From: Algibacter pectinivorans
GTDB lineage: Bacteria; Bacteroidota; Bacteroidia; Flavobacteriales; Flavobacteriaceae
Length of the DNA stretch: 64,000 bases
Direction of reading: 5' to 3'
Assembly: GCF_900112595.1 (NCBI RefSeq)
Contig: NZ_FOMI01000001.1
Coordinates: 1-64,000 of the forward strand
Notes under the pieces: model-generated
Told to the model about the DNA's origin: nothing
Databases searched by the model: none
The model's input: the letters and a program-made list of their open reading frames with translations, nothing else
Position numbers and translations under genes: made by a program
Shown: in pieces, positions 13,807-39,159 of the stretch
How positions within the stretch are numbered: position 1 is the stretch's first letter
Layout of the letters: each line of letters begins with the position of its first letter

Positions 13807-15126
13807 TTAACTTGAACTTGTCTCATTTAGTTTTTCCTGATTGCCGACAAAAAATCCATACCACATAATGTACAAAAAACACAGTAGAGGCAATATAAAT
13901 GAAAAATTAATTTCTGATACACCTAAGATTTCTATATCAGAAACTCCAGCACCTCCAAAGTCTATAATATTACCCTGTAACTTAGGCATTAAAGCCCCGC
14001 CAACAATAGCCATGACTAAGCCGGCAGACCCTACTTTAGATTGCTCTTCGGTGAGCCCTCCTAAGGCTATCCCATAAATAGTTGGAAACATTAAAGACAT
14101 GCAAAAAGACACCCCCACTAACATATATAAACCTAAGATTCCTTGAACAAAAATAGTACCTGAAACAAATATTATTGCTAAAAAAGCAAATAGCATTAAT
14201 AATTTTCCTGAGCCAATAAATCTTAACATGTAGGTACCTAAGGCTCTACCTATAGTAAACAAAATAAATGCGACCATTTGGTAATACCCTGCTGTTACAC
14301 TATCTACACCAATACCTTCTGCATACTGGTAAATATATGTCCAACACATAATTTGAGCTCCAACATATAAAACTTGAGCTAGTACACCAAGTATGTAGTT
14401 ATTATTTTTAGCTAAGTTTTTAAATGTTTCTTTAATACTTGGCAAATTACCATCTTCTTTAGATTGGGGCATTTGGCACACTAAAAATAGCACAAACACA
14501 CCTATAAGAACTAGTCCTAAAATTACGTACGGGTTTCTAATTACAAGTAAATCTGAAGTTTTAATTAGAATTTTAGAAGCCTCATCGAGCGATGAGAAGT
14601 TTTCAATATCATCAGATTTCAAGTTTTTAAGCACAAATTGTTGAGCAACAAACAACCCTAAGATTAATCCAACAGGGTTAAATGCTTGAGCCAAATTTAA
14701 CCGTTGAGTAGCTGTTTCTTTTGCTCCCATAGCTAGTGCATACGGGTTTGCTGCTGTTTCTAAGAAGGCCAGCCCAAAAGTTAAAACATACAAGCCTAAA
14801 CAGAAAAACCAAAACTTCTCTGTAGTAGCGGCCGGATAAAACAAAAGGGCACCTACAGCATACAGTGCTAATCCAATTAAAATTCCTGTTTTATAAGAAT
14901 ATTTTCGCATAAATATTGAAGCAGGTAACGCCATACAGAAGTAGCCTCCATAAAAAGCCATTTGTACCCATGCGGCTTGTGAATTAGAAAGTTCTAAAAC
15001 TTTTTTAAAAGCCTGTACCATAGGATCTGTTACCGCATTAGCAAACCCCCAAAGAGCAAAAAGGGAAGTAACTAATATAAAAGGGAGCAACATTTTATTA
15101 GGAACCACTGGAATATTCGATTTCAT
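13807..15126 (-). CDS. FucP/GluP-type sugar:proton symporter (MFS)
   Basis: Inner-membrane major facilitator permease of 439 residues with about 12 hydrophobic segments. It belongs to the FucP/GluP group, whose members import L-fucose, glucose, galactose or mannose. The start FILVTSLFALWGFANAVTDP, the conserved FLETAANPYA (about residues 121-130) and the following TATQRLNLAQAFNPVG block are hallmarks of that group. It is the only MFS permease of the mannosidase region, so mannose is the most likely cargo; glucuronate or inositol cannot be excluded. It stands alone, with more than 600 bases on each side, and would have its own promoter. Confidence 0.85.
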   Translation of the reverse strand: MKSNIPVVPNKMLLPFILVTSLFALWGFANAVTDPMVQAFKKVLELSNSQAAWVQMAFYGGYFCMALPASIFMRKYSYKTGILIGLALYAVGALLFYPAATTEKFWFFCLGLYVLTFGLAFLETAANPYALAMGAKETATQRLNLAQAFNPVGLILGLFVAQQFVLKNLKSDDIENFSSLDEASKILIKTSDLLVIRNPYVILGLVLIGVFVLFLVCQMPQSKEDGNLPSIKETFKNLAKNNNYILGVLAQVLYVGAQIMCWTYIYQYAEGIGVDSVTAGYYQMVAFILFTIGRALGTYMLRFIGSGKLLMLFAFLAIIFVSGTIFVQGILGLYMLVGVSFCMSLMFPTIYGIALGGLTEEQSKVGSAGLVMAIVGGALMPKLQGNIIDFGGAGVSDIEILGVSEINFSFILPLLCFLYIMWYGFFVGNQEKLNETSSS

Positions 15127-15754: not shown

Positions 15755-18700
15755 TTACTTTAATAATTTGCTTGGGCTATAACCAAATTGCTTTTTAAAA
15801 ACTTTACTAAAATAGAAGGGGTCATTAAACCCTATCATATCAGAAACTTCAGAAACATTATAGCGCTTAGTTTTTAAAAGTTGTGCAGACTTCTTTAACT
15901 GAATGGTCCTAATAAACTCATAAGGTGTTAAATCGGTAAGTTGCTTAATTTTTCTATATAATTTTGATGTACTCATCCCAACTTCTTCGGCAATAAAATT
16001 TGGCGACAACTTGGTAGAACTAATATTGTCTTCAATTATTTCTTTTATTTTAGACACCAAATCTATGTCTAATTGCGAGTGTGCTAATGTTAAAATATCG
16101 CCATCTACTTCTCCCAAAAAACGTTGCTTTAAACCAAAATGTAGTTTTATTATATTATCAATACGGGTTTTTAACAATGCGGGATCAAAAGGTTTTGTAA
16201 GATATCCATCTACGCCAATAGAGTAGCCTTTTATTCTGTTTTCATTTTCGGCCAATGCTGTGAGGAGTATTACAGCAATATGGCTTATATCATCGTCCGA
16301 TTTTAAGGATTCAACAAACTCAAACCCATCCATAACAGGCATCATTACATCAACAACACATAATACCGGCTTCTCTTTTTTACATATCTCAAGGCCTTCT
16401 TGCCCATTTTTAGCTTCTAAAACCTTATAGTAAGTAGATAAATATTGTACTACATAATCTCTTAATTCGGTGTTATCTTCAATTACAAGAATCTTTTGTT
16501 TTACACTGGTTTCTGGTAAGGTACTTTCTACTACTAAAGACTCTCTAATTTCAAGTTGGTTATTAGTTTTACGCTCTTTAGGCTCTTTGTCTATGAGTTT
16601 AGAGTTAATAGCTTTAAAAAGTTCATCGTTGTTGTATGCGCTTTTATTTACTGGTATTTCCACGGTAAATACACTTCCACTTCCTAGCTTACTTTTAACT
16701 TTAATTTCTCCTTTATGAATGTCTACTAATGCTTTAACTAAAGATAGGCCTATTCCAGTTCCTGTATTCTCTATGGTCGTTCTAGCTTGATAAAACCTCT
16801 TAAATATTTTTTCATGGCTTTCATCTGAAATTCCAATACCATTATCACTTACTTCTAATATCAACATATTGGAATCATTATCTTTAAGTCCCAAAAACAA
16901 ATCTACATTTCCATTTCTTTCCGTAAATTTTATAGCATTAGAAAGTAAGTTATACAGAATCTTACTAAACTTATCTATATCTATCCAACAAATAAATGCA
17001 TCTTCACTTTCAATATTTAAACTTAAACTAATGTTTTTTTCTAGTGTCAATTCTTTAAAAGAATTGAATATACTTTTAACATGTTCGCTCACATCAGTTT
17101 TGGCTACTTTTAAATTTAGTTCACCCGTTTCGGCTCTTCTAAAATCTAAAATTTGATTTACTAACCTTAACAAACGGTTAGCGTTTTGATAAACCAAATT
17201 AGCTCTACTAAGTATATAATCGTCATTTTGATTATTTATTAACTGTTTAGCCGGCCCCAAAATAAGTGTTAAAGGTGTTCTTAATTCGTGCGAAATATTT
17301 GTAAAAAAACGGAGTTTATCGTTGTTTAATTTTTCGTCGCGCTCTCGCCTTACTTTTTCAAAGAGCAATTCTTGTTTTAAACGTCTTCGGTTTTTTAATT
17401 GACTATGCAAAAAATATGCCCCTATAGAGATAAGTATAAAGATAAAAATAAAAAAGAATGGAGAAAGCCAAAAAGGAGGCTGTACTTTAATTGCATAACT
17501 TGATATCTCACTTTCATACCCATTATTATTAGTTGCCTTTAATTTTAAATTATAGTCTCCTGGTGGTAAATTTGCATATTGTATAGAACGTGAACCACTG
17601 CTTGTTTTGTTCCAGTGCTTATCTAAACCGTCTAATTTATAATAAAACGTATTTTGGCGCTGGCTAACGTAAGAAGGCATAGAGAATTTAACCGTAAAAT
17701 TTCTATTTTTATAATTTAATCGTATTTTTTTAGCGTAATTTATATCTTTATTTAACACAACAATATCCTCAAGTGTTTCTCCTGGCTTAATTTCGTTGTT
17801 ACTAACCTTGAGTTCTGAAATTACTGGAGTTGGTGAATTGTTGTTCTCGTTAATATCTAAGGGATTAAATAGTATTATTTCTTTGTTGCCTCCAACGTAA
17901 ATTTTGGTTCTATTAAAATGTAAAAACCCACGTTTATTGAACAAGTTTGAACGCACCCCATTTTTCACGTAAAATGTTTTATAATCGTTATTTCTTGGGT
18001 TGTATTTTACAATTTTGTTATAATTTAAGTTTAACCACATAATACCTAAACTATCCACCGCTATATCTGTTATCCAGTTATCTGCTAATTCTTTGGGCTC
18101 TGTTTGTAGTTTAAAATTATTGGTTACAGGGTCGTAATAGTTTAAACCTTCTCGAGTTCCTGCCCATAAACGACCACTATCATCAAAAAAAAGTTCTTTT
18201 ACTTTGTTGTTGGATAAGCCATTTTCACCATCTTGGTGTACATACTGCTCTAAATTGTTGTCTTTCCTATTATACCTAAAAACACCCTCTTCTGTGGCTA
18301 TCCAAAACAACTTTTGGTGTTCTAAATAGAGTATTTTATTAATATCCTTAAATTTTGGATTATTATTTTTTATAAAATCCTTTTCTCCCGTAATTAAATC
18401 AAACTTTACCAATCCTTCTCCTTGAGATCCCACTAAAAGTTCGTTGTTCGATATTTTATAAAAAGCAAATACAGGAGAGTTTACAAAACCTACATTAAAT
18501 TTTCTTTCTTTATTATTCTTATAATCATATTCTACTACACCGCCGTCCCATAACCCAATATAAAAAACAATATTGTCTTTTGTATAAATACTACTAATTT
18601 CGCTGTAACTATCTAATAACTTTATAAAATCATCATGTTTCTTCAAAAACACACCTTGGGCTTGAGTTCCTATTAGAAGGTTATTATCAAATGTTTTAGC

Positions 18701-19798
18701 AAAAGAACTTATTATTGGGATTTGATTGTTTCCCGTAAAATTTAGTCCCAAAGATTTAAATTGGTTTTCGAAAGGATTCAGGCTTTCTAAACCATTTTCT
18801 GTACCTACCCAAAGCACTCCCGAAAAGTCAAAATATAAAGAAATAATGTAATTATTAACAAGCGAATTTGGATTGTTTAAGTCTGTTGTATATTGCCTAA
18901 AGTTACCTTTTACAAATTCTTCCATTGAAGGACATTCAATTATTCCGTTAGAAGTACCAAACCAATAACTACCATCCGGAGCTTTTGTAAAACACCTAAA
19001 ATAGCTACTCATGGAGTTTGCTTCAGTGTCTTTAAATGTATTATCTATCTTATCTAATTTAAACAAACCTTCTCGGGTTCCTACAAAAACATTATACGCT
19101 TTATCTTCAAATATAAAATAGGCATTGGCATTTTTTTTAGTCTCATTATTGGGGTATAGGGTGTAATTTTGTAAATCTACTATTTTCCCGAAATCATCTA
19201 TAAAAAAGCTATAAACTCCTTTTGTGAAACTTGTTACCCACATTCTACCGTCATGCGACTGGGTTATACCTCTTATATTATCAATTTCACCTAAATCGAT
19301 ATTGTAAAATTTATTAGTATTGGTATCTAAATAACATAATCCATTATTTAATGTTCCCACCCAAACCCTATGAGCTTCATCAATATATACAGATCGAACT
19401 CGATCATCCACCAACGCATGCTTATCTTTAGGGTTTGCACGAAACGTTTTAAAGCTGGATGTAGGAAGGTGATATGCAGTTAACCCATTATCTGTTGCAA
19501 TCCACAAATTAGATTTTGCATCTGATACTATTTGTAAAATATCATTACTATTAAGTTGATCTGAAGCTTGCTCCTTGGCTGTAAACACTTTAAAATCGTA
19601 ACCATCAAAACGGTTTACACCTCCAAACGTACCTAACCATAAAAAGCCTTTATCATCTTGAACAATACTTCTAACCGAATTATGAGATAAACCTTTGGTT
19701 TCATTAAAATGCTCAAAATACAACTCTTGTGCAATGCCATTTATGTAAAACATTGAAAGTAAAAAGTATAATATCTTATTTTTACACATAAAAAACAA
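15755..19798 (-). CDS. Hybrid two-component system regulator (HTCS)
   Basis: One-protein sensor and transcription activator typical of Bacteroidota polysaccharide loci. Its 1347 residues hold an N-terminal signal, a periplasmic two-bladed propeller sensor built from repeats like DDKGFLWLGTFGGVNRF (about 25-690), a Y_Y_Y domain (to about 770), one membrane segment (about 776-800), HisKA with NISHELRTPLTLI (phospho-His near 836), an ATPase domain with NLLSNAIKF and GTGIGLSLVK, a receiver with VVDVMMPVMDGFEFV (Asp near 1151) and LLTALAEN, and a C-terminal AraC-type DNA-binding domain ending GFNDPFYFSKVFKKQFGYSP. It starts 6 bases after the phosphoesterase gene, as the last gene of the susC-led run. 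It probably senses an oligosaccharide from that substrate. MCKNK, three codons later, is an alternative start. Confidence 0.95.
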   Translation of the reverse strand: MFFMCKNKILYFLLSMFYINGIAQELYFEHFNETKGLSHNSVRSIVQDDKGFLWLGTFGGVNRFDGYDFKVFTAKEQASDQLNSNDILQIVSDAKSNLWIATDNGLTAYHLPTSSFKTFRANPKDKHALVDDRVRSVYIDEAHRVWVGTLNNGLCYLDTNTNKFYNIDLGEIDNIRGITQSHDGRMWVTSFTKGVYSFFIDDFGKIVDLQNYTLYPNNETKKNANAYFIFEDKAYNVFVGTREGLFKLDKIDNTFKDTEANSMSSYFRCFTKAPDGSYWFGTSNGIIECPSMEEFVKGNFRQYTTDLNNPNSLVNNYIISLYFDFSGVLWVGTENGLESLNPFENQFKSLGLNFTGNNQIPIISSFAKTFDNNLLIGTQAQGVFLKKHDDFIKLLDSYSEISSIYTKDNIVFYIGLWDGGVVEYDYKNNKERKFNVGFVNSPVFAFYKISNNELLVGSQGEGLVKFDLITGEKDFIKNNNPKFKDINKILYLEHQKLFWIATEEGVFRYNRKDNNLEQYVHQDGENGLSNNKVKELFFDDSGRLWAGTREGLNYYDPVTNNFKLQTEPKELADNWITDIAVDSLGIMWLNLNYNKIVKYNPRNNDYKTFYVKNGVRSNLFNKRGFLHFNRTKIYVGGNKEIILFNPLDINENNNSPTPVISELKVSNNEIKPGETLEDIVVLNKDINYAKKIRLNYKNRNFTVKFSMPSYVSQRQNTFYYKLDGLDKHWNKTSSGSRSIQYANLPPGDYNLKLKATNNNGYESEISSYAIKVQPPFWLSPFFFIFIFILISIGAYFLHSQLKNRRRLKQELLFEKVRRERDEKLNNDKLRFFTNISHELRTPLTLILGPAKQLINNQNDDYILSRANLVYQNANRLLRLVNQILDFRRAETGELNLKVAKTDVSEHVKSIFNSFKELTLEKNISLSLNIESEDAFICWIDIDKFSKILYNLLSNAIKFTERNGNVDLFLGLKDNDSNMLILEVSDNGIGISDESHEKIFKRFYQARTTIENTGTGIGLSLVKALVDIHKGEIKVKSKLGSGSVFTVEIPVNKSAYNNDELFKAINSKLIDKEPKERKTNNQLEIRESLVVESTLPETSVKQKILVIEDNTELRDYVVQYLSTYYKVLEAKNGQEGLEICKKEKPVLCVVDVMMPVMDGFEFVESLKSDDDISHIAVILLTALAENENRIKGYSIGVDGYLTKPFDPALLKTRIDNIIKLHFGLKQRFLGEVDGDILTLAHSQLDIDLVSKIKEIIEDNISSTKLSPNFIAEEVGMSTSKLYRKIKQLTDLTPYEFIRTIQLKKSAQLLKTKRYNVSEVSDMIGFNDPFYFSKVFKKQFGYSPSKLLK

Positions 19799-19804
19799 CT
19801 TTTA

Positions 19805-21598
19805 TTAGTACAATATAGTTTTATTTTTATCTAAACGAATAACAAAACAATTGCTAGGTGCTCCATTTAAAAACTTACTAAATATAACACAAAATTGATA
19901 GAAGTCTTTTTGTCTATTAGAAGGTGTTTTTAAATGTTGGAATTTATCCTGAAACAGTTCAATGATTTGTTTGTAATTATCTAATCTTTTTTCTCCAATA
20001 TCACTAAAAGCAAGCGCATCGGCAGAACGCAGTCGATATAAATCAAAAAGCATATCAAAACCTGTCCAAGTTTTAAATTCAGTATTATTTTTAGTATCCC
20101 CTGAAGCAAATTTCAGTAAATCCTCCCCTGTTGCTTCTACTAGAAAATCGGTAAAAGAAATATTCCAATCTTCTTTTAAAAACCGTAATCGCACCAATTC
20201 TTTTAAATGAAATTGCGTAAAATCTTTATAACTTTTAGCTTCTAAAATAGCGGAATCCCATACTGTTTTTGAATTACTTTTTTTCAGATGTTCATACTCT
20301 TGCTTGTATAGCGGAAATAACTCCCTAAATCTAAGAACACTATCTACTACAACAGTTTCTATTTTAAATGCTTTCGCTGTTACTGTTGCTATTTTATAGG
20401 CGGGAATATATGCTGCTAATGATGGAATTTGAACGTTTACCAAACTACCATTTTTAAAGGTTGCTATGCCCGTATCGTTAATATGCATGTGACCGCCAAA
20501 ATGCACTTTTACACCAGCATTTATAAAAGCTTTTGCAACAACTTCTTTAGGTACTCTGTGCAATTGCATTTTAGTTTCTCCTAATAAATTTTGAATATGT
20601 TCTGAGGCACCATCGTTAAAATCTACAGTTGGATAATGACTAAAAACAATTAGTTTTTTATTTAACTTTTCTGCACGTTGTGTAACAGTTTTAATCCAAT
20701 TTAACAAGTGTTTTTTATGCGTTAAAACATTATTATAACCAATACTAGCACTACTGTAATTTTTTGAATTCTTTGGCACATAAACATTCGCATCAATAGC
20801 TAAAAACCAAAGGCCATCCGTGGGTTCTACTAAATAACTTACATCTGGAATTTTGTTGCCAAAAGGCGGAATTTCATAATTTCTGTTCAATAAATCGGCC
20901 TGTTGTATTGCCTCATTAAATTGATAATTTGAATACGTATAATCTGAAAACGGTGTTTCCCAATACACATCTTTTTCCTTTGGAAAAAACCCAAAATCCT
21001 TTAATTCGGAAAGTATTTCTTTATACCCCAACTTAGCAATATCTTTGGTGAAAATGGGGTTTAATTCTTGATTTTCTTCAGCTTTAAACGCTTTTTCGGA
21101 ACTAAAAATAGGTTGTTGTTTTCCGGCTTCTCCAAGAAAATCGTGTTTACCCGACTCTTGGTAAAAGGGGCGCACAGGGTCATGATTTCCTGTTGTAAGT
21201 ATAAACTCGATATCATGCGCTTCTGAATACTTTTTTAATATCCGTTTTAATCCTTTTATGTTTAGCATTTGTCCGTCGTCACTAAAGTCTCCTGGTAGTA
21301 CCACGTATTTTATGTTTCGAGATGCTACATCATCTAAAGCAGCTAAAAAAGCAAAATAGTTTTCGTTGAATAATCGCGTAGATTGCAGTTGCGATTGCAT
21401 GGTTCTTGCCAAGGTATATTTGCCTGTTGCTGAATTTAAAACACCTTTATACTCATTATCTGAAAACGTGCCGTAAATATCTTGCAAATGCACATCTGCC
21501 ATAAAAGCCACTTTAAAACTCTTATCTGTTTTTCCTTGCTTCTCATTACAAGAAAACAATAGCAAACCAATAAAAATGACACTAAGTCTTTTGAACAT
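19805..21598 (-). CDS. Calcineurin-like metallophosphoesterase lipoprotein
   Basis: Dinuclear-metal phosphoesterase probably anchored by lipid at Cys17 (LLLFSC). The motif series is complete: ADVHLQD (Asp35, His37), LPGDFSDDGQ (Asp104), TTGNHDP (Asn138, His139), IVFSHYPT and FGGHMHIND. At 597 residues it is longer than the bare domain; the last third (after about 400) has no recognised domain and is mostly helical in appearance. It lies 7 bases downstream of GH115 and 6 bases upstream of the regulator gene. In this setting the natural role would be removing phosphate from inositol phosphate or a phosphorylated sugar freed by the phospholipase C and glycosidases; that substrate is inferred. 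Confidence 0.85.
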   Translation of the reverse strand: MFKRLSVIFIGLLLFSCNEKQGKTDKSFKVAFMADVHLQDIYGTFSDNEYKGVLNSATGKYTLARTMQSQLQSTRLFNENYFAFLAALDDVASRNIKYVVLPGDFSDDGQMLNIKGLKRILKKYSEAHDIEFILTTGNHDPVRPFYQESGKHDFLGEAGKQQPIFSSEKAFKAEENQELNPIFTKDIAKLGYKEILSELKDFGFFPKEKDVYWETPFSDYTYSNYQFNEAIQQADLLNRNYEIPPFGNKIPDVSYLVEPTDGLWFLAIDANVYVPKNSKNYSSASIGYNNVLTHKKHLLNWIKTVTQRAEKLNKKLIVFSHYPTVDFNDGASEHIQNLLGETKMQLHRVPKEVVAKAFINAGVKVHFGGHMHINDTGIATFKNGSLVNVQIPSLAAYIPAYKIATVTAKAFKIETVVVDSVLRFRELFPLYKQEYEHLKKSNSKTVWDSAILEAKSYKDFTQFHLKELVRLRFLKEDWNISFTDFLVEATGEDLLKFASGDTKNNTEFKTWTGFDMLFDLYRLRSADALAFSDIGEKRLDNYKQIIELFQDKFQHLKTPSNRQKDFYQFCVIFSKFLNGAPSNCFVIRLDKNKTILY

Positions 21599-21605
21599 TT
21601 AGGTA

Positions 21606-24551
21606 CTACATTTTAGTTTCTGGAGGAAATAAATACGATTTTTTCCATCCTCCAAAGTCGATTAAAATTTGGTCTATCATTACGCCAGCATCTACCATCC
21701 AAATTTTTAATTTGTGTTTTCCTGCTGTATTTACAATTTGCTTTACAGATTGTACGGATGCATTTTTTAATACATTTTGTTTCCAAGCATCACTTCTCCC
21801 AAAAGTTTGAAAATCGACTATAACAGGTTCTGCATCATCAATAGCTATGGCACAACGCACACCTGTTTTATTATTGGGTGCATGTGTTGGAATGGCTTGT
21901 AAAAACACATCAACCTCTCCAAAATTAAACGCATAAAAATCGTATTCTAAAATAGGGCTATTTTGTTTTATAGCTTCCAATTCTGTTTCAGAATTTGCTT
22001 TTCGTGGTAAAGCCACACTTACATTTCCGGTGTAACCTACACCATTAAAAGTAGTCCATTTTGCTTCTTTCCCATCAACTTTACGAGAAAAATTTTCTGC
22101 ATTTATAGAAACAAATCCTTTGTCTTCAACAAAGCCCTTGTAATCTTCCAACTCCTTTAATTTTGGATTAAAAACAGACACCCCAATATGCGTTTTCTTT
22201 TCTTTTGAAATAAAATCTATTCCAGAATTTACTTTAAAACTTGGTGGAATAAGTTGATAATCGTGCCCCAAAGGTGCTTCTTTTTTGTTTTCTCCTTTCG
22301 GGACTTTATCCCAATCTATAGTTACCCAAATACGCTCTTCTAAATGGTTTTTATTCAGTATTCCTGATGTTTTCGAGATTATAATCCAATTTGCCTTAGG
22401 CACTGCTTCCCATTCCAATTCATCTTTTCCTTTTAAAAATAAATCGATGTAATACTTGTTTTTGGTGTATGCATTAAAAACGGGTAAAACATCGGCATAG
22501 GAGTTTATAACCGCATCATTTACTTCCATTTGATAGCTTTCTAAAGCCATACCCAAAGTACTCGTTTTTTCTTTTAAAGCTATTGTTGCCGTTGGTTCAG
22601 CAAACACAGGCAAGTGCCTTGGTGCCATTGTTATAATATGCTTCCACTTTCCATTTTGAAGCGTATTATTAAAATAGTCCGTTTCTTTTTGAATCGCTTT
22701 AAATGCATCAAAAGATTTTGTAGCAAAATCGCTAGCACTTTGTCTTCCTTGAGCTGCAACAAATTTATTTTTATAACTGTAAAGCCACTTAAGATTTAAA
22801 TTTGATGCGCCTGTAATGGGATAATGAATTAGTTGGTAAAAGGCATCTTTTCTGTGTGTTGAAATATTCTTTTGAATTTTATTTACATCACTAATTAAAT
22901 TTTGATGTGCTTGAATGCGCTTACCAACTTCATCTCCATAATGATATTGTGTCAACTCCGTTTCTCCTGATTTGGTAACCGGTTCTACACTACTCCAAGC
23001 CATAAATTCTGGCCTACGCTGAAAGGCCAATTGGTTATATTTAAACATCAAATTGGTAATAGCCTTTGCGTTTTCCTTTCCAAATGCATTAGCACTCCAA
23101 TTTAGATGATGATTTTTAACTGAATCGTCATTTTTAAAAGTATCAATATTCCAAGCCATATCTAAAAACAACTCGATATTATATTCATGTGGTTTGATAT
23201 CGCCACAATTCAGAATCCAAATATTTTGAGATCCAAACTCATAGGCTTTCGTCATTTCTTCCCACATTAAAACAGGATTTGTAGAATTTAACCATAGGTA
23301 ATCGTGGGGTCTTCCCCAATACGAGGTATGGTAATAAACTCCTGCCCCTCCACTTCTTTTTTGTTCATCTTCATTACTCAATTGGCGCATGTATCCGTAA
23401 TTATCATCGGTCCAAACCAAACTAACATCTTCGGGCAAGTCTAAACCACTTTGGTAATAATGCAACACCTCTTTATAAGGTACAAATGCCTGTGGTTTTG
23501 CGATTCCTCGCTTTGTATTGGCTCTAAGAATCTGGCGTTGATCGGCTATCACTTTTTCTAGAAGTTTTACTTGGGCATCGGTATCATCTTCGCCAACTAT
23601 CATAGGTGAATCGTGTTCTCCACGCATTCCAACGGTATAAATACCTTCAAAATTTGCCGTTTCTTTTGCTCGTTTTTTAAATAGCGATTTTATGGATTCT
23701 GAATTCGTATCGTATCTATAATCGCCCATAGTTTCATGATGCCATTCTGCATTTATATTACACAGCATGGGTTCTGCATGCGAACTTCCAATAACTATGG
23801 CATAATTATCGGCAACTATTTTATTTTCTGGATAATGATAAAATGCCTTTGTACATTTATGCATTGCAGGCCAAATGGTATTGGCTCTTAAACGCAATAA
23901 AAGCTCAAATACTTTTGCATACGTTTTGGGGCCAATATCTCCCGTTTCTGGTTCGTAATTTAATGCGGCCCAACGTTGTAAGCCCCAATCTTCATCATTT
24001 AAAAAAATGCCTCGATATTTTACTGATGGCGCACCATAAATCTTGTTTTCTATGTTTAAAACTAATTCTTGTTGCTTTTCTGGATTAACATCTGCCCACC
24101 ATTCCCACGGAGATACACCAATCATTCGAGATATTTCTAACAGTCCGTAGGCAGTTCCTCTTCGGTCTGAACCGATAATTACTAATGCTTTTTTTATTCC
24201 TTTTGAAGGGTTATTTATAACTTGAATGTTATATGTTTCCCATTTGCCTTTAATTTGAGAAACATCAATGTTATGTTTTGTAACCAATTGATTGATGCGT
24301 TTACTTTTCCCTAATGTACCTGCAATAATTTGATAGGATGCCTTATTTTGATGGATTGCAACTGTTTTTCCTGAAACTTTTTTTACATCGTTTGCTAAAA
24401 TTTTAGAAGCAATTCTAACCACTTCTGCTTCTTTTTTATCAATGTGTATTGAAGCTATTTCTCCATTTTTTACCAGTGGGAATTGAATCGTATTTTGCCC
24501 CCATGAGGAAAGGCAAAACATTAAAAATAAGAGTTTAAAGAGTTTAGTCAT
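21606..24551 (-). CDS. GH115 alpha-glucuronidase, exported
   Basis: GH115 enzymes are inverting alpha-1,2-glucuronidases, known mostly from glucuronoxylan. The 981 residues begin with a Sec signal (LFLMFCLSSWGQ). Family blocks are visible: GSDRRGTAYGLLEISRMIGV (about 128-147), YRGIFLNDEDWGLQRWA (about 179-195), LRANTIWPAMHK, GSSHAEPML and GMRGEHDSPM, followed by a C-terminal domain. It overlaps the phospholipase gene by 8 bases. No xylanase or xylosidase is in the locus, so xylan is an unlikely target. The alpha-1,2 link between glucuronic acid and inositol in plant-type GIPC lipids would fit the neighbouring genes, as would a glucuronomannan. Family assignment is firm; substrate is inference. 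Confidence 0.9.
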   Translation of the reverse strand: MTKLFKLLFLMFCLSSWGQNTIQFPLVKNGEIASIHIDKKEAEVVRIASKILANDVKKVSGKTVAIHQNKASYQIIAGTLGKSKRINQLVTKHNIDVSQIKGKWETYNIQVINNPSKGIKKALVIIGSDRRGTAYGLLEISRMIGVSPWEWWADVNPEKQQELVLNIENKIYGAPSVKYRGIFLNDEDWGLQRWAALNYEPETGDIGPKTYAKVFELLLRLRANTIWPAMHKCTKAFYHYPENKIVADNYAIVIGSSHAEPMLCNINAEWHHETMGDYRYDTNSESIKSLFKKRAKETANFEGIYTVGMRGEHDSPMIVGEDDTDAQVKLLEKVIADQRQILRANTKRGIAKPQAFVPYKEVLHYYQSGLDLPEDVSLVWTDDNYGYMRQLSNEDEQKRSGGAGVYYHTSYWGRPHDYLWLNSTNPVLMWEEMTKAYEFGSQNIWILNCGDIKPHEYNIELFLDMAWNIDTFKNDDSVKNHHLNWSANAFGKENAKAITNLMFKYNQLAFQRRPEFMAWSSVEPVTKSGETELTQYHYGDEVGKRIQAHQNLISDVNKIQKNISTHRKDAFYQLIHYPITGASNLNLKWLYSYKNKFVAAQGRQSASDFATKSFDAFKAIQKETDYFNNTLQNGKWKHIITMAPRHLPVFAEPTATIALKEKTSTLGMALESYQMEVNDAVINSYADVLPVFNAYTKNKYYIDLFLKGKDELEWEAVPKANWIIISKTSGILNKNHLEERIWVTIDWDKVPKGENKKEAPLGHDYQLIPPSFKVNSGIDFISKEKKTHIGVSVFNPKLKELEDYKGFVEDKGFVSINAENFSRKVDGKEAKWTTFNGVGYTGNVSVALPRKANSETELEAIKQNSPILEYDFYAFNFGEVDVFLQAIPTHAPNNKTGVRCAIAIDDAEPVIVDFQTFGRSDAWKQNVLKNASVQSVKQIVNTAGKHKLKIWMVDAGVMIDQILIDFGGWKKSYLFPPETKM

Positions 24552-25620
24552 TGTATTCTGTTACTTTTTTAATCCTTTCATAAGTGCCATCATCAAACTT
24601 CACTTCAAAATCAGATTCAAATAATGTTGATGGTTTATAATAATCGGTAGATATTACTTGCGCTCCCGATGCTTTTGCTTTTTCAAATTTGGTGTAATCG
24701 TTTGTTCTAGCTTCTTTAGTTCCTGCGTCGGCGCGCGTGCGCACCATATACCCTTTTGCAACTAACTGCTTTATATATTCAAAATCGGTAATGGGGTTAT
24801 TTACAATTCTAAACGCAGCTTCAGGATTTCCTTCTTTACTATTCACAAAAAATACGCGGTTTTTTAGTGTGGTATCACCATTAATGTAAAGCTTGTTTTT
24901 TTGTTCTTTTTCATCTAAAACAAAAAGGAATTTTCCTTTACAGTCTTCTAATTTTGGCCAGCCGTTTTTTAAGACTGCTTCTTCCAAATTATTAAAATCT
25001 TTCCGCACGTCATCTGGCACTATCAAATCGTCTTTTGAAAAAACCGAACGTATTTCAGCATCTAATTCTTGATAGGCTTTGACTGAAAATGGCAGTGGTT
25101 TTGTTAACTGTGGTAGTGCTTTATCTTTCGTATTCATTAAGATGATAATTGGTGTATGTGTTGGGTTTTGATCCGACCATTGCTTCATCACGCTTAAACA
25201 ATCTTTGAATAGCAAATGATGACTTCTAAAGTCGATATCTTGAATATGAAATAATTTAAATCCAGATGCTTCTAAAGTATTATCTTCATCATAAGGCATT
25301 GGAGTAACTCCAGATTGTTTTATAATTTCTAAACCTTTCGGATTCGAAAAACGACCACCTTTTGGGTCATAAAACACATCTAATTCTAAATGTCGTAAAC
25401 CTAGATTTAGCTGTTCTTTAATACTAATATGCTCATATTCTAAAGATTTTGCTTTGCTAGAATCAATAGTTCCAATATAATTTAATAACGGTTTCTCTAT
25501 TCCTATTTTATATGAATTATGACTTCCAATAACCTGAACATCATTCAGTTTTAAATGTGCTTGATTTGCACACCCAAAACAGATAACAATAATTAGACAT
25601 AAAAGAGCCCGTTGTTTCAT
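24544..25620 (-). CDS. Ca2+-dependent phosphoinositide-specific phospholipase C, lipoprotein
   Basis: Resembles the bacterial Ca2+-dependent PI-PLC family (PI-PLC-C1, Streptomyces type), which cleaves the phosphodiester between inositol and the lipid. The 358-residue protein has a lipobox at Cys17 (VICFGC). The TIM-barrel signature residues are VIGSHNSYK (His34), LRHLELDVFYD (His77, Glu79, Asp81, probable catalytic and Ca2+ residues), FKLFHIQDIDF (His125, Asp128) and PIIILMNTKD. It starts directly after the GH125 stop codon and overlaps GH115, so it is translationally linked to alpha-mannosidase and alpha-glucuronidase genes. That context suggests a glycosylated inositol phospholipid as substrate. 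Other glycerophosphodiester-type substrates remain possible. Confidence 0.82.
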   Translation of the reverse strand: MKQRALLCLIIVICFGCANQAHLKLNDVQVIGSHNSYKIGIEKPLLNYIGTIDSSKAKSLEYEHISIKEQLNLGLRHLELDVFYDPKGGRFSNPKGLEIIKQSGVTPMPYDEDNTLEASGFKLFHIQDIDFRSHHLLFKDCLSVMKQWSDQNPTHTPIIILMNTKDKALPQLTKPLPFSVKAYQELDAEIRSVFSKDDLIVPDDVRKDFNNLEEAVLKNGWPKLEDCKGKFLFVLDEKEQKNKLYINGDTTLKNRVFFVNSKEGNPEAAFRIVNNPITDFEYIKQLVAKGYMVRTRADAGTKEARTNDYTKFEKAKASGAQVISTDYYKPSTLFESDFEVKFDDGTYERIKKVTEYND

Positions 25621-27143: not shown

Positions 27144-29450
27144 TTAATTATCTCTAGCTTCCATTTTCATGTTAAGCACACCACCACTTGTTATGTCTTT
27201 ATGAAACAAGGTAAATTCTTTTAATGACTTACCATTAAAGGTCGCTTCTTTTACAAATACATTGGCTTCATTATTATCAGTGGCTAGAATTTCTAAGGTT
27301 TTTCCTGAATAATAATCGGGATGCAATTGAATGGAAATTTTATCGAAAATAGGGCTTCCAATTTGATATTCTGCATCTGCATCTGTTCCGCCATTTATTT
27401 GGAATAAACCAATTTTCATTAACACAGCAAGACTTCCCATTAAACCTTGGTCTTCGTCTCCATTATAACCTGTTGATGGTGCTAAACCTCCAAAAACGGT
27501 AGATGCTACTTTTCGAGACCAATACTGTGTTAAGTCTGGTCTGCCCAGTTTATGAAAAGCAAAAGCTGTTTGTATAGAGGGTTGATTACCATAGTTTATT
27601 GGAATCTTTCTATATTCTGGATGTAATTCTGATGCATGTGATGTCCCAGAGGTAAAGTTTAAAGTTTCTGCTTCTTCAAATTGAGTCTTCAATTTATCGG
27701 CAGCCACATCTTTTCCTCCCATTAATTCTCCTAATTCTGGAATATTATGAGGTACAAACCACGTGGATTGTGCGCCATTGGCTTCTATAAAACCTTCCTC
27801 ATAATTGTAAGGACTATAGTCGGCTTGCCATTGTCCCTTTATATTTTTGGGTTGCATCCACCCTATTTTTTTATTGAATAGGTTCTGATAGTTTTTAGAA
27901 CGCTTCATAAAATAATTGTAATCTGCTTTCTTGCCTAACTTTAATGCCAATTGGGCTAACGTCCAATCTTGATACGCATATTCTAAAGTTAAACCTGCAC
28001 CATCTTGATGCCCTCCAAATTTACCTTCTGGATTTGGATGCGGCACAAAACCATTTTTTAAATAATATTTAAGACCACCTCCTTTTTGTGTTTTATGCTC
28101 ATAGCCCGCCTTTTCCATAATACCATTTGGCATATGGTTTTTCTTTAGAGCTTCGTATACATATTCTAAATTATTTTTAAGAATACCTTTTTGAATGGCA
28201 CTCACAAAAAATGGTGTGGACGAACTTCCCGTCATAACATAAGTGTAATTTCCTCCTGATGGACCTCTAGCAACTAAACCACCATCTTTATAATATTGTA
28301 ATAAAGACCATGTAAATTCTTCATAAATTTCTGGATATACTAAGCCCCATAAAGTATTTATTGTCCATTGCGCGCCCCAAAAAGCATCTGAGTTATAGTG
28401 ATTAAACTTAGGCGTACCATCTTCTTTTAAAGGCAATTCACCTATTCTAAAGCTTTTTCCTGTATTATCTGGATACGCACCATTTACATCGCTTATGGTT
28501 CGTCTTCCTTGAAGCGCATGCCACAAGTCTGTATAAAATCTCTTTTGTTGCTTTTCAGTATTCCCTTCAACTTTTATTCTACCTAAAAGGCTATTCCATT
28601 CGTCTTTTGAATCTGAAACTACAGCATTAAAATCCCAATGTTGTAATTCTGTTTTCATATTTAAACTGGCATTTTCTTCTGAGGTATATGAAATAGCAAC
28701 TTTCATTAAAAGCGGCGTATTCAAATCCTTAAAATGCAACATGTAATTCCCTGTTTCTTCATCTTTTTGAAGATGATTTACAGACTGATTTAAAGCTATT
28801 TTAAAAAATACTTTTAAATCTTTTGGTCTCCTATGCGTTGGCGTAGCTACTACAGAGCCAACAAATTCTTTATCGTTAATTTGTTTTAACACGCCATTTG
28901 CATTATCGCTAGGCCCTAAAACGGTATTTAAATTTAATAGGATTCCTGATTCAGATTTTTCAGGAAATGTATATTTATGAAAACCGACACGTTTGGTACT
29001 TGTTAATTCTGTTTTAATATTAAAACGTTGAAGTTCTAAGCTATGATAACCTGGTTTTACCACTTCATTATCATGACTAAATTTTGAATAGAAATCGGTA
29101 AAAATGCTATTTTTATTTTCTTCGGAAAAGGTAACTGGCATTACAGAAACACCAGATATTTGCCAACCATGAATATGACTAAATCCCTTTATGGTATCTG
29201 TTTTATAACGATAACCACTACCCCAAGCACCTTCTATTTGGTTATCTGGACTTAAATTTACCATTCCAAAAGGACGGCATGCCGACGAAAAGAAAAACCA
29301 TCTAGAATTTTCTGTATCTAGTTGAGGATAGACCATACTTGAAAAATCGACATCTTTATCAACTTCATCTGCGACTATTTGTTTACTATCATTTTTACAA
29401 GCAAAAACTGATAATAGTATAAACAATATAAAAAATTTATAATATCTCAT
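27144..29450 (-). CDS. GH92 family protein, divergent lipoprotein (GNQP variant, B)
   Basis: GH92-fold lipoprotein of 768 residues, lipobox at Cys18 (LLSVFAC). The N-terminal part has WFFFSSACRPFGMVNLSPDN and the GFSHIHGWQISG block of the family. In the C-terminal domain the usual YLYNYA and SAWYV motifs are replaced: it reads INYGNQPSIQTAFAFHKLG (Gln623 instead of the acid Glu) and YNGDEDQGLMGSLAVLMKIG, keeping the Asp pair of the catalytic base. It is the most divergent of the three GH92 proteins here, so its sugar specificity may differ from mannose. Its first codon overlaps the end of the GH28 gene by 4 bases, so the two are translationally coupled. Confidence 0.85.
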   Translation of the reverse strand: MRYYKFFILFILLSVFACKNDSKQIVADEVDKDVDFSSMVYPQLDTENSRWFFFSSACRPFGMVNLSPDNQIEGAWGSGYRYKTDTIKGFSHIHGWQISGVSVMPVTFSEENKNSIFTDFYSKFSHDNEVVKPGYHSLELQRFNIKTELTSTKRVGFHKYTFPEKSESGILLNLNTVLGPSDNANGVLKQINDKEFVGSVVATPTHRRPKDLKVFFKIALNQSVNHLQKDEETGNYMLHFKDLNTPLLMKVAISYTSEENASLNMKTELQHWDFNAVVSDSKDEWNSLLGRIKVEGNTEKQQKRFYTDLWHALQGRRTISDVNGAYPDNTGKSFRIGELPLKEDGTPKFNHYNSDAFWGAQWTINTLWGLVYPEIYEEFTWSLLQYYKDGGLVARGPSGGNYTYVMTGSSSTPFFVSAIQKGILKNNLEYVYEALKKNHMPNGIMEKAGYEHKTQKGGGLKYYLKNGFVPHPNPEGKFGGHQDGAGLTLEYAYQDWTLAQLALKLGKKADYNYFMKRSKNYQNLFNKKIGWMQPKNIKGQWQADYSPYNYEEGFIEANGAQSTWFVPHNIPELGELMGGKDVAADKLKTQFEEAETLNFTSGTSHASELHPEYRKIPINYGNQPSIQTAFAFHKLGRPDLTQYWSRKVASTVFGGLAPSTGYNGDEDQGLMGSLAVLMKIGLFQINGGTDADAEYQIGSPIFDKISIQLHPDYYSGKTLEILATDNNEANVFVKEATFNGKSLKEFTLFHKDITSGGVLNMKMEARDN

Positions 29451-31084
29451 TGGGTTTGTTTAATAATGGCAGTAGCCGGTTTCAATTCATCATCTTTTGT
29501 TACCTCATACGTTCCTTTTAATGCAAATTGTTTGTGATTAGTTTCTGGTAAAACCACATTTTCTATATTTAAAACGTTTACTTCATCAAATACAAATGCT
29601 GGTCTAAAATCTTTGTTTTCCAGTTTTAAATTTACATTTTTAAAAGTAATATCTTTTGCATAGCGAACATAGAACCCCCAAGCTGGAAGTTCTCCAAACA
29701 TTGAAAACTCTGGATAATCCTTTATTTTATGAGGTACTTGTTCTAATCTACTTAAAGGCACATAAGCCATTCCTTTTGATGCTCTACCAGGATATGTAAT
29801 ATCTATATTTTCTATAATTACATTTTCTATATTGTGCCCAGGAATACCTACAATTGAAGAAGGAAAAGGGTTGTGGAAAAAATCGACCTCTGGTCCTCTT
29901 AAATCGTAATTTATATCTGGCCTTCCAAAAGGTATTTCAACCTTTATATCTTTTATATGTACATTTTTTATAATTCCCGGTTGCTCGCCACCTCTGTGAC
30001 CTAAGCGAATAAAAATACCATTCCCTGTATTTTTAGCAACAATATTAGACACACTAATGTTTTCTATAGCACCACCGTCTACACTTTCAATAGCTATTGC
30101 AGAACGAAATGTATCAAAAACATTAATATTTTCGATAGTCACATTTTTAAATCCACCGTAAGAAGCTGTTCCAAACTTTAATGCACTTGCACTACTTTTA
30201 ATTGTACAATTTGCAATATATATACTATCGTTATAATATTTTGGAAAGTACGATTTTAAACAAATGCCATCGTCAGCAGAATCTACATCGCAATTGGTTA
30301 TTTGTACATTTTTACAATCGGTAATATCTATACCATCATTATTCCAAAAGGCTCTATTAACTATTTTAAGGTTATCCAATTTTAATTTTTCACATAACTC
30401 AAAAGAAAGTCCCCAACATGCTCCATTTTGCAGGTTTAAATCCAAGACATCTACATTTTTGCACATTGAAAATCTAAATAATTTAGGTCTTGCCGTTTCA
30501 TTTGGACGCATACGCCGGTAATTATACTTTGGATCGATACGGTCTCCTGAATGGTGTAAACTATCTATCCTTAACGCCAAAGCTCTACCTTGTCCATCTA
30601 TTTTACCTTTGCCGTAAATTTTAAAATTATTGGCTTTATAGGCTACTAAAAATGCCATATTTGAATAATCATCTCTCTTTGGAGATTCTGGTCGTTCTGG
30701 CATTGGTACATCTTTATAATCGTAAGGATTTGTGCTCCCTAATAAAACAGCACCTTCTTTTAAATACAAGCTTACATTAGATTTCATTACAAGACTACCA
30801 GAAAGGTATTCTCCTGTAGGAAATACTAAAGTACCACCATGGGCTTGATGAACTTTATCTATTAATTCTTGTAAAGCAACTGTATTTAATATTTTACTGT
30901 TACCAACTATACCATAATCTGTAACCAAATACTCTTTATTATTAGTCTTTTTTAGATACTCTTTTTTAACTTCACTTTGAGAGACATTTACAGGTGTTTC
31001 AGGAGCTTCTTTACATGACCAAAAAAATAAAATCAGTAAAAAAGCATATAAAACAGAAGTACTATATTTTGTCTTGTATGCCAT
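29447..31084 (-). CDS. GH28 family glycoside hydrolase lipoprotein
   Basis: Right-handed parallel beta-helix hydrolase of the polygalacturonase family, inverting on alpha-linked uronic acid or rhamnose units. It has 545 residues with a lipobox at Cys24 (LILFFWSC). The entry motif YLVTDYGIVGNSKILNTVAL and LVFPTGEYLSGSL are typical. Catalytic blocks are FWNNDGIDITDC (Asp near 250) and SADDGICLKS (Asp-Asp near 270), followed by the GTASYGGFKNVTIEN turn, which lacks the GHG seen in classical pectinases. It sits between two GH92 genes, with no pectate lyase, esterase or unsaturated-uronide hydrolase nearby, so pectin is unlikely. A glucuronate- or galacturonate-bearing side chain is a reasonable guess. 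Confidence 0.87.
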   Translation of the reverse strand: MAYKTKYSTSVLYAFLLILFFWSCKEAPETPVNVSQSEVKKEYLKKTNNKEYLVTDYGIVGNSKILNTVALQELIDKVHQAHGGTLVFPTGEYLSGSLVMKSNVSLYLKEGAVLLGSTNPYDYKDVPMPERPESPKRDDYSNMAFLVAYKANNFKIYGKGKIDGQGRALALRIDSLHHSGDRIDPKYNYRRMRPNETARPKLFRFSMCKNVDVLDLNLQNGACWGLSFELCEKLKLDNLKIVNRAFWNNDGIDITDCKNVQITNCDVDSADDGICLKSYFPKYYNDSIYIANCTIKSSASALKFGTASYGGFKNVTIENINVFDTFRSAIAIESVDGGAIENISVSNIVAKNTGNGIFIRLGHRGGEQPGIIKNVHIKDIKVEIPFGRPDINYDLRGPEVDFFHNPFPSSIVGIPGHNIENVIIENIDITYPGRASKGMAYVPLSRLEQVPHKIKDYPEFSMFGELPAWGFYVRYAKDITFKNVNLKLENKDFRPAFVFDEVNVLNIENVVLPETNHKQFALKGTYEVTKDDELKPATAIIKQTQ

Positions 31085-31086
31085 GT

Positions 31087-33171
31087 TTAATTTTGTTTAC
31101 CCCAGCCTTTATTGGGCGTATCTGTTAATTCAAATTGCAAAATGCCGCCTTTAGAAATTAAATTAAAGTCTATAATACTTGAGTTAATTTCTTCTCCATT
31201 CCATGTTACTTTTTGAATGTAAATATTTTTTGATGTTCTGCCGTTTGCAATTATTTGTAACGGTTTATCATTTGTTTTTATAGTAATTTTATCAAATTGT
31301 GGTGTAGTTAATGCCAACTGAGTACTTCCTGGGAAAACAGGATATAAACCCATTGTAGACCATACGTACCACGACGACATGGTGCCTGCATCATCATCCA
31401 TCTCTTTAATATAACCATCGGGCGTATTACTAAAAATTTTACGCGTAATGGGTTGTTCTAATTTATGGTGTGTTCCGTACCAATTATTCGTTTCTTTGTT
31501 TAATAACTGGTCGACTAACCTTTGTGTTTTCCATGGCGAATTTGTGTAATTATACAAATACGGCACTTGAATATCGGGTTGATTACCTATGTTAAATAAT
31601 TCGTTTTCAAAGAAATAATCTAATTGATTTTCAAATTCATCTTTACCACCTATCATGGTTTGAATTCCATTTATATCAAAAGGTACAAACCATCGGTATT
31701 GCCACAACGTGCCTTCGTATAATCCGTCTCCATGCATGATATCTGAATTTTCATCCATAGTTAAAAACTTGTCTTTCCAAAGGGTTTTATATTCAAAAGC
31801 TTTATCTCTATAAAATTTAGCATCTGCATTTTCTCCTAAAGCCTTAGAAATTTCTGAAAGTGCCCATAAATCATAACTCGATTCTAGTACATTATCTGGC
31901 GATTTAAACGGTAAATGTTCAGCTTCTGCTTTCATTTCTTCATAAATATCAGATAATGGAAATGGCAAAATTCCTTTTTGATATGCATCTAGCACAATAG
32001 CTATGGTATGCTCTGTTCTAATGGTTAAAAAAGGTTCTGTTTCTGTTGCCCAATCAGGTTTTCCTTGTTTGTACAATGCTTTTAAAGACGTTAACATGTC
32101 TTTATATCTATTTGGATATAAAAATGAAAATAAAGGAAGTTTTGTTCTAAACGTATCCCATACAGACCAACCGTGATAATGCGATGAATTAGATTTGTAT
32201 GGATTACCATCACTACCTCTAAACACTCCATTTTTATCATTTATAATAAATGGCGATTGTGTTGCGTGGTACAAATGTGTATAGAATAATTCCTTTAGTG
32301 TATCATTTTCTGTCTCTACATGAACAACATCCATAAGATTGTTCCATGATGTAAATGCTTGCTCTTTAACTTCAGAAAAACTTAATTTTTCTGATAATTT
32401 TAAATTTTGAATGGCACTGTTTTCATCAACAACCGACAAAGCACATCGTAATAAAACTTCTTGATTCTTATTAGTTGAAAACTTAAAAATTAATTTAGAA
32501 TTATCTTCAGTTACTTCTGACACTTCATGATTAAAATTAATGGCATAGTAAAATGTGTATTTACCTTTTCTGCAAACATTAACGCTTGTTATTTTACCAC
32601 TAATGATACCGTTTTCTATATGATAACTATGAGATACGTGACCTGCATAACTACTTGCTAAATCTATAATAAGTCCAGCATTTTTAGATTCTGGAAATGT
32701 ATATTGATGAAATGCGACTTGCCTATTTGCAGTAAGTTGCGTTTTTACACCGTTGCTTAAGTTCACTGAATAATATCCAGCTTTAGCTTTTTCACTTTCT
32801 TTTGAATATGCTAGACCTTTAGGAATTGAATCTCCTTTTGCAATAACAAAAGGTAATACTCTTAAATTTCCTCCTACACCTCTACATCCAACACCAGAAA
32901 ATCTGGTATTTGAAAAACCAATGATTTCTTCTGCACTGTAATCGTACCCAGAATGTGCTATTGGATTTGTATCTGGACTTGGTTTTACCATTCCGAAAGG
33001 AACACTGGCAGCAACATCTGTTTGTCCGTGGTCGTTAGCGGTAGAAATAAATGGATTAATATAACTAGTTACAGGTATTTCAACAAATTCTTTAGATTGC
33101 TTATTGCAGCCTAAAAGTGATAATACTAAACTAATAATTATACATAAACAGAGAAACTTTCTCATAAACAA
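31087..33171 (-). CDS. GH92 family exo-alpha-mannosidase-like lipoprotein (GNQP variant, C)
   Basis: Third GH92 protein, 694 residues, lipobox at Cys22 (LVLSLLGC). Canonical N-terminal features are VTSYINPFISTANDHGQTDVA and IGFSNTRFSGVGCRGVGGN. The helical domain retains HGWSVWDTFRTKLPLFS, GNQPDIQVPYLYNYTNSPWK and DDDAGTMSSWYVWSTMGLYP. Gln531 replaces the catalytic acid Glu, while the base Asp residues are kept. It is the first enzyme gene after susC-susD, following a 69-base gap that contains a strong hairpin, and precedes GH28 by 2 bases. Apart from the Gln it looks like an intact classical GH92, which argues against simple decay and for a special substrate. Confidence 0.92.
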   Translation of the reverse strand: MFMRKFLCLCIIISLVLSLLGCNKQSKEFVEIPVTSYINPFISTANDHGQTDVAASVPFGMVKPSPDTNPIAHSGYDYSAEEIIGFSNTRFSGVGCRGVGGNLRVLPFVIAKGDSIPKGLAYSKESEKAKAGYYSVNLSNGVKTQLTANRQVAFHQYTFPESKNAGLIIDLASSYAGHVSHSYHIENGIISGKITSVNVCRKGKYTFYYAINFNHEVSEVTEDNSKLIFKFSTNKNQEVLLRCALSVVDENSAIQNLKLSEKLSFSEVKEQAFTSWNNLMDVVHVETENDTLKELFYTHLYHATQSPFIINDKNGVFRGSDGNPYKSNSSHYHGWSVWDTFRTKLPLFSFLYPNRYKDMLTSLKALYKQGKPDWATETEPFLTIRTEHTIAIVLDAYQKGILPFPLSDIYEEMKAEAEHLPFKSPDNVLESSYDLWALSEISKALGENADAKFYRDKAFEYKTLWKDKFLTMDENSDIMHGDGLYEGTLWQYRWFVPFDINGIQTMIGGKDEFENQLDYFFENELFNIGNQPDIQVPYLYNYTNSPWKTQRLVDQLLNKETNNWYGTHHKLEQPITRKIFSNTPDGYIKEMDDDAGTMSSWYVWSTMGLYPVFPGSTQLALTTPQFDKITIKTNDKPLQIIANGRTSKNIYIQKVTWNGEEINSSIIDFNLISKGGILQFELTDTPNKGWGKQN

Positions 33172-37986: not shown

Positions 37987-38256
37987 TATTTTAAAAGTTT
38001 GGTTAATAAAATTTTGTTAAAATTACATTTTTAATATCCGAATGACCTAGAAAATCGTCTCAACCTCATGTAATTTTCATGCTATAACACTTAAATTAAA
38101 TACAATAAATTAAGACAATTAACTTTTTAATTTATTTTAGAAACAAGAAAGTTAATTCTCTTTTTTACCACCTATTTTACAGACAATTGAACAGATTTTA
38201 CATGCTAACTTTCTATTTACAGATTAACTTTGGATTTACCACTAAAGCAAAAAAAA
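37987..38256. promoter_or_regulatory. Divergent control region of susC and inositol oxygenase, with repeated TTAACTTT boxes
   Basis: AATTAACTTT at 38117-38126 and its exact complement AAAGTTAATT at 38148-38157 form an inverted repeat with a 21-base spacer. Related boxes occur at about 38206 (CTAACTTT) and 38224-38231 (TTAACTTT, overlapping the -7 box of the oxygenase gene). Four copies in about 115 bases between two divergent genes suggest binding sites for the hybrid regulator or another dimeric factor. The AT-rich background weakens the case. Confidence 0.45.
38225..38232 (+). promoter_or_regulatory. Bacteroidota -7 promoter box of the inositol oxygenase gene
   Basis: TAACTTTG matches the TAnnTTTG consensus. 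Its 3' end is 25 bases before the ATG at 38257, which places the transcript start near 38239. It overlaps an upstream in-frame TTG at 38230, so that TTG cannot be the start codon if this promoter is used. No convincing -33 box was assigned. Confidence 0.55.
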
Positions 38257-39129: not shown

Positions 39130-39159
39130 TATCTTTTTATTTAGCCAACCTTTTTTGAT

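Follow-up and report, generated by a model that had tools for sequence, protein, structure and literature searches.

A 64,000-nucleotide stretch from Algibacter pectinivorans (NZ_FOMI01000001.1, positions 1 to 64,000; hereafter the window) contains an operon in which a gene for a Ca2+-dependent phosphatidylinositol-specific phospholipase C (PI-PLC) is placed among glycosidase genes. Judged from its sequence, the locus is probably a polysaccharide utilisation locus (PUL)-type system for the glycosyl inositol phosphorylceramides (GIPC) of plants and probably of algae, with inositol catabolism attached. GIPC are a main class of plant-membrane sphingolipids and account for a large share of plasma-membrane lipids; each combines a ceramide with inositol, phosphate and uronic acid. 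A preliminary description of the same DNA had proposed a nutritional role for the PI-PLC on glycosylated inositol lipids. As a genomic inference, this proposal is supported by the genes for a myo-inositol oxygenase (MIOX) and a symporter in the cluster, by the retention of the cluster in at least 14 genera, and by the match of its enzymes to sugars, and in one case to a linkage, known from plant GIPC. No bacterial system for GIPC breakdown of this kind was found in the literature searched, of which coverage was partial.

The PI-PLC gene (24544..25620, minus strand; 358 codons, ATG start at 25620) has no PF16670-type counterpart elsewhere in the genome. Its product matched PF16670 (PI-PLC-C1, Ca2+-dependent) at 2e-127 and 425 bits over profile positions 1-327 of 329, the Pfam cut-off being 29.9 bits. 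Both motifs on which the earlier assignment to a Ca2+-dependent PI-PLC-type lipoprotein had relied, VIGSHNSYK and LRHLELDVFYD, were found in the translation, and the N-terminus (MKQRALLCLIIVICFGC17) has the lipoprotein-like arrangement of a hydrophobic stretch followed by a cysteine, in agreement with that assignment. Sequence matches to two solved Ca2+-dependent bacterial PI-PLCs were weak. An AlphaFold model built with 28 relatives reached a mean predicted local distance difference test (pLDDT) score of 93, and its best solved match was the Pseudomonas sp. enzyme 5fyp (Z 25.1, root-mean-square deviation (rmsd) 2.7 over 248 residues). The comparison with the Streptomyces enzyme that the preliminary description had suggested returned the same fold (PLC1, 3h4w; Z 23.3, rmsd 3.2 over 257 residues), eukaryotic phospholipases C scoring lower (Z about 17). 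With Streptomyces antibioticus PLC1 and the Pseudomonas structures (5fyo, 5fyp and 5fyr) the window enzyme shares the fold (Z 23-25), the PF16670 domain, the histidine pair and the Asn/Glu/Asp Ca2+ ligands; it differs from them in sequence (21-23% identity in structural alignment) and in being a lipoprotein encoded within a SusCD operon.

The histidine pair, H34 and H125, was invariant in 28/28 relatives and in 79/79 relatives with the region present, and N35, E79 and D81 were likewise invariant in all comparable relatives. By analogy with PLC-delta1, in which the pair is H311/H356, we take H34 and H125 to be the catalytic histidines and N35, E79 and D81 to be Ca2+ ligands. The fourth Ca2+-ligand position is occupied by N163; asparagine stands there in all 79 close relatives and glutamate in several distant ones, and in the sequence alignment the solved Streptomyces enzyme has Glu at this position and the Pseudomonas enzyme Asp. 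A lack of the Ca2+ site and the histidine pair had been named beforehand as what would speak against a PI-PLC; the pair and three ligands are in place, whereas the fourth ligand position departs from the solved enzymes. The product is almost certainly a PI-PLC-family phosphodiesterase. A virulence role was considered and rejected, since the operon showed nothing toxin-like and the adjacent genes are catabolic. A longer PI-PLC open reading frame of ~615 amino acids is present in Mariniflexile, Algibacter miyuki and relatives (L010:649-2502; also L008, L012, L179, L180 and L192). The N-terminal extension in L010 is an alpha/beta-hydrolase (BD-FAE-like esterase) domain, which may mean that an acyl group on the head group is removed as well.

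The operon lies on the minus strand in the order SusC, SusD, GH92, GH28, GH92, GH125, PI-PLC, GH115, metallophosphoesterase and hybrid two-component system (HTCS) regulator; from SusC to this last gene, the spacing between genes is -8 to 83 bases. Pfam identified a SusC-like TonB-dependent transporter (34906..37986), a SusD-like surface glycan-binding lipoprotein (33241..34893), two GH92 alpha-mannosidase lipoproteins (31087..33171 and 27144..29450), a GH28-family glycosidase lipoprotein resembling rhamnogalacturonidases and galacturonidases (29447..31084), and a GH125 exo-alpha-mannosidase (PF06824; 25621..27060). The regulator (15755..19798) combines Reg_prop, HisKA, response regulator and AraC helix-turn-helix domains and adjoins the metallophosphoesterase gene in relatives too. 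With its SusC/SusD pair, co-directional degradative enzymes and regulator, the operon has the organisation of a PUL. The GH125 stop codon occupies 25621-25623, which leaves a gap of 0 to the PI-PLC gene, and the latter overlaps the GH115 gene by 8 bases; the coordinates agree with the tight coupling reported before. The SusCD pair, the HTCS regulator and exo-glycosidase lipoproteins are common to Bacteroidota PULs, especially the GH92/GH125 alpha-mannan loci. Beyond these, the window locus has the PI-PLC, the metallophosphoesterase, MIOX and the symporter, and it is presumably directed at the head group of a membrane sphingolipid.

MIOX and the symporter, which the preliminary description did not mention, are encoded on the plus strand (38230-40734), divergently from the operon. 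The region between susC and the MIOX gene (37987..38229) presumably serves as a shared control region. MIOX (38230..39129; listed start TTG, with an alternative ATG near 38257) matched PF05153 at 2.7e-111 over positions 2-249 of 249, and a second match in the genome was a sub-threshold fragment. Full-length MIOX, GH115 and PI-PLC are each single-copy in the genome and all three stand in this one locus, an arrangement that fits together if the target is an inositol-glucuronic acid compound. The adjacent sodium:solute symporter (SSS family; 39160..40734) is the proposed inositol importer. The genome also encodes glucuronate isomerase UxaC (two copies) and mannonate dehydratase UxuA, a likely route for the glucuronate that MIOX would produce or GH115 set free.

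The GH115 alpha-glucuronidase (21606..24551, minus strand) has both the catalytic and the C-terminal domain (PF15979, 3.7e-130; PF17829, 1.5e-44). Among solved structures it is closest to BtGH115A (5by3; 2e-174) and lies farther from enzymes named as xylan-specific. Some of the solved members are named xylan alpha-1,2-glucuronidases, which is the same linkage type as that between glucuronic acid (GlcA) and inositol. A family-wide search recovered a distinct subfamily in 18 genomes at 57-96% identity, followed by a gap to 44%. Of its members, 16/18 sit in MIOX-containing loci; the other two (G117 and G100) are found in SusCD/GH92/GH89/HGSNAT/GH115/GH43 loci, with a PI-PLC elsewhere in those genomes. 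On this sequence evidence the subfamily seems to be devoted to a single type of substrate. It shares domains and family with BtGH115A, 4zmh and 4c90 but forms a separate, MIOX-linked subfamily, for which the proposed aglycone is inositol rather than a polysaccharide sugar. A xylan-directed function was rejected, the operon being without a xylanase, the gene being the sole GH115 of the genome and BtGH115A being its closest solved relative; among related loci, G115 alone has a GH10/GH5 cluster next door. Another GH115-like family, very distant from the first and of ~685 amino acids (PF15979 at 1e-14 to 1e-20; L049:8930-10987 and L058:4128-6191), adjoins GH92 in many loci, sometimes where the canonical GH115 is missing.

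The class III, calcineurin-like metallophosphoesterase lipoprotein (19805..21598, minus strand; PF00149, 4e-11) retains a full metal-binding set, with D35, H37, D104, N138, H139, H321, H370 and H372 invariant. A PDB sequence search gave no relevant match, so that fold comparison alone was informative. The model (pLDDT 92) was nearest to Lmo2642 (Z 33.9), followed by the glycerophosphodiesterase GpdQ, purple acid phosphatases, SMPDL3A (Z 19) and acid sphingomyelinase (Z 18). The pairing of this gene with PI-PLC recurs also where glycosidases are missing. The protein is likeliest a phosphatase or phosphodiesterase for inositol (cyclic) phosphate.

To place the locus among relatives, 397 genomes from the family were sampled, of which 31 had a PI-PLC homologue, the 19 closest coming from 17 genera. 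MIOX stood in the same locus as PI-PLC in 16 of these 19 genomes (14 genera). A full-length MIOX was present somewhere in the genome in 19/19 genomes with a close PI-PLC versus 43/378 others (Fisher 3e-17, uncorrected for phylogeny). A scan of named genomes yielded 80 PI-PLC loci, whose neighbours within about 10 kb were compared between the 38 closest (59-96% identity) and the 42 next. Of the closest loci, 34 had GH115 or its distant homologue, 35 had GH92, and 36 each had the metallophosphoesterase and the HTCS regulator. In contrast, GH115 was found in 0 and GH92 in 2 of the 42 next loci, which mostly contained SusCD and PI-PLC, often with the metallophosphoesterase. The nearest named relatives were from uncultured Algibacter (96% identity), and the nearest genera were Algibacter, Seonamhaeicola, Hyunsoonleella, Maribacter, Cellulophaga, Mariniflexile and Flavobacterium. 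The recurring core comprised SusC/D, GH92, GH115, PI-PLC, the metallophosphoesterase, the HTCS regulator, MIOX and the symporter. On the PI-PLC tree the two kinds of neighbourhood clustered, with 7 label changes versus 27 in shuffled labels, near-copies inflating the clustering.

From the conserved linkage, gene content, families, folds and catalytic residues, we infer a substrate, a set of activities, and the order and location of the steps. SusC/D and the surface lipoproteins would capture the lipid or its head group, the two GH92 enzymes and the one GH125 enzyme would strip mannose, and GH115 would cleave the alpha-1,2-linked GlcA from inositol, leaving the inositol 2-OH free. The Ca2+-dependent PI-PLC would then cut off the ceramide to yield inositol (cyclic) phosphate, and the metallophosphoesterase would take the phosphate off. 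The symporter would import the inositol and MIOX would oxidise it to glucuronate, which, together with the GlcA released by GH115, would enter the uronate pathway (UxaC/UxuA). In PI-PLC chemistry the inositol 2-OH attacks phosphorus. Because GlcA occupies inositol O-2, the hydroxyl that PI-PLC needs, GH115 should act before PI-PLC; since O-2 carries GlcA in the best-described GIPC, the intact lipid should resist the usual route of PI-PLC. The order could differ in branched or otherwise linked head groups.

Cap enzymes vary among sister loci and include GH125, GH29, GH3, GH43, GH51, GH2 and GH89 together with an HGSNAT-like acetyltransferase; a PIG-L-type deacetylase fusion is also found. These families correspond to alpha-N-acetylglucosaminidase (GH89), arabinosidase (GH43/GH51), galactosidase (GH2) and fucosidase (GH29). 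Six PI-PLC loci of named Flavobacterium contain GH89 or HGSNAT, and each of the six, including those of F. glycines and F. pokkalii, contains both. In lysosomal heparan breakdown, glucosamine (GlcN) is removed by acetylation followed by hydrolysis, and by analogy HGSNAT and GH89 would remove free GlcN in the same way. Published GIPC have the structure GlcNAc(alpha1-4)GlcA(alpha1-2)inositol-1-P-ceramide, where GlcNAc is N-acetylglucosamine, with additions of arabinose (Ara), galactose (Gal) and mannose (Man) (PMC8099651). Arabidopsis GIPC are mainly Man-GlcA-inositol phosphorylceramide, and those of tobacco and rice are mainly hexosamine forms (PMC9113257). Most cap enzymes match these sugars, with GH89 and the HGSNAT-like protein suited to GlcNAc/GlcN, GH43/GH51 to Ara, GH2 to Gal and GH92/GH125 to Man, and the three alpha-mannosidases of the window locus fit GIPC of the Man-GlcA type.

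On balance, we lean towards a broader proposal, namely a widespread Bacteroidota locus class dedicated to GIPC, in which a fixed core (GH115, PI-PLC, metallophosphoesterase, MIOX and inositol symporter) is combined with interchangeable caps reflecting which type of head group the host plant or alga makes, and in which removal of the O-2 GlcA by GH115 licenses PI-PLC. If true, the susCD paradigm would reach beyond polysaccharides to sphingolipid head groups, secreted bacterial PI-PLCs would have a nutritional role, and there would be a reason why some of these bacteria own MIOX. Such loci would also supply enzymes for sequencing the poorly known GIPC glycans of plants and algae. Bacteroides thetaiotaomicron offers a parallel in that inositol sphingolipids occur in Bacteroidota, but it synthesises its own lipids (PMC9246714), whereas the window locus is predicted to degrade eukaryotic ones.

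Several observations weigh against GIPC as the substrate. GH28 has no obvious place in the known head group, and fucose, to which the GH29 of many loci would correspond, does not feature as a GIPC sugar in the literature searched. Most relatives are marine, and little has been described of the GIPC head groups of algae; the marine strains may draw their natural substrate from seagrass, green algae or plant debris. No ceramidase was found, in a search on which control genomes were equally silent and which was hence uninformative. The fourth Ca2+-ligand position holds Asn, not Glu. One genome (G153) has the same operon without PI-PLC, a distant copy standing elsewhere in that genome, and G308, G115 and G164, whose sister loci contain MIOX and GH115, gave no PF16670 match at all. 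PI-PLC is a frequent, not an obligatory, member of such loci. At a guess, the metallophosphoesterase might act as a sphingomyelinase-like substitute in loci without it (G308, G115 and G153). Finally, some PI-PLC homologues accompany SusCD and the metallophosphoesterase with zero glycosidases, so the enzyme class is not GIPC-specific.

The otherwise identical G153 operon that lacks PI-PLC would suit a locus mainly for a GlcA-containing alpha-mannan or a similar algal polysaccharide, with PI-PLC as a passenger for scavenging phosphate or lipid out of algal debris and MIOX present for the use of free inositol. GH92, GH125, GH115 and SusCD are usual in glycan loci, and GH38, a third GH92 and mannose-6-phosphate isomerases are encoded downstream. 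However, the operon has no recognised endo-mannanase, MIOX and the symporter are conserved along with it, and PI-PLC lies mid-operon in many genera, usually adjoining GH115 or the metallophosphoesterase. The pairs of PI-PLC and metallophosphoesterase without glycosidases also point to an inositol-phosphate step, and the polysaccharide explanation is considered unlikely.

Glycosylphosphatidylinositol (GPI) anchors or other mannosylated phosphatidylinositol glycans are quite unlikely targets. In that case the mannosidases would trim the glycan, PI-PLC would release it, the metallophosphoesterase would remove ethanolamine phosphate or inositol phosphate, and inositol would be catabolised. The GH92 and GH125 alpha-mannosidases, PI-PLC and MIOX are all compatible with this route, HGSNAT and GH89 of some relatives could handle GlcN, and the inositol 2-OH is usually free in GPI, as PI-PLC requires. 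Yet GPI is without glucuronic acid, whereas these loci have a GH115 subfamily of their own; the GH43, GH51 and GH2 caps suit plant GIPC better, and several relatives are named after seaweeds or plants. Neither GPI anchors nor plain phosphatidylinositol fit as well as the GlcA-bearing GIPC. It is highly improbable that PI-PLC acts only on phosphatidylinositol or plain inositol phosphorylceramide while the glycosidases work in parallel on separate glycans, as the glycosidase-free clusters of SusCD, PI-PLC and metallophosphoesterase in Zobellia, Pricia and Algoriphagus might suggest, for the GH115 and PI-PLC genes overlap and the tree clustering of glycosidase-linked PI-PLCs suggests a lasting functional tie.

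MIOX genes also occur in other settings. Other Flavobacteriaceae have a further, more distant class of MIOX (about 320 bits), which is paired with a symporter but not placed in a glycan locus (L136, L137, L138 and L139). In L131, L132 and L127, MIOX adjoins GH89, HGSNAT, GH2 or GH43, GH95 and an unusual 719-amino-acid SSF-domain protein, with no GH115 or PI-PLC in the stretch examined; these loci probably serve a related inositol glycan. In L074 (the G006 locus), the MIOX gene near a distant PI-PLC is broken by in-frame stops and the symporter gene is split, apparently a decaying copy. Several sister loci encode a conserved secreted protein of 188-202 amino acids directly ahead of PI-PLC, GH115 or the metallophosphoesterase (L043:18819-19385; the G308, G127 and G317 loci); neither of two copies scanned matched Pfam. 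Downstream of the operon in the window, a GxGYxYP putative glycoside hydrolase gene (7886-9796) lies between the third GH92 gene and GH38, with two mannose-6-phosphate isomerase genes nearby, in a mannose-related cluster that can be connected with the operon only tentatively. A FucP-like sugar:H+ symporter gene (13807..15126, minus strand), downstream also in several relatives, possibly provides for uptake of some released monosaccharide.

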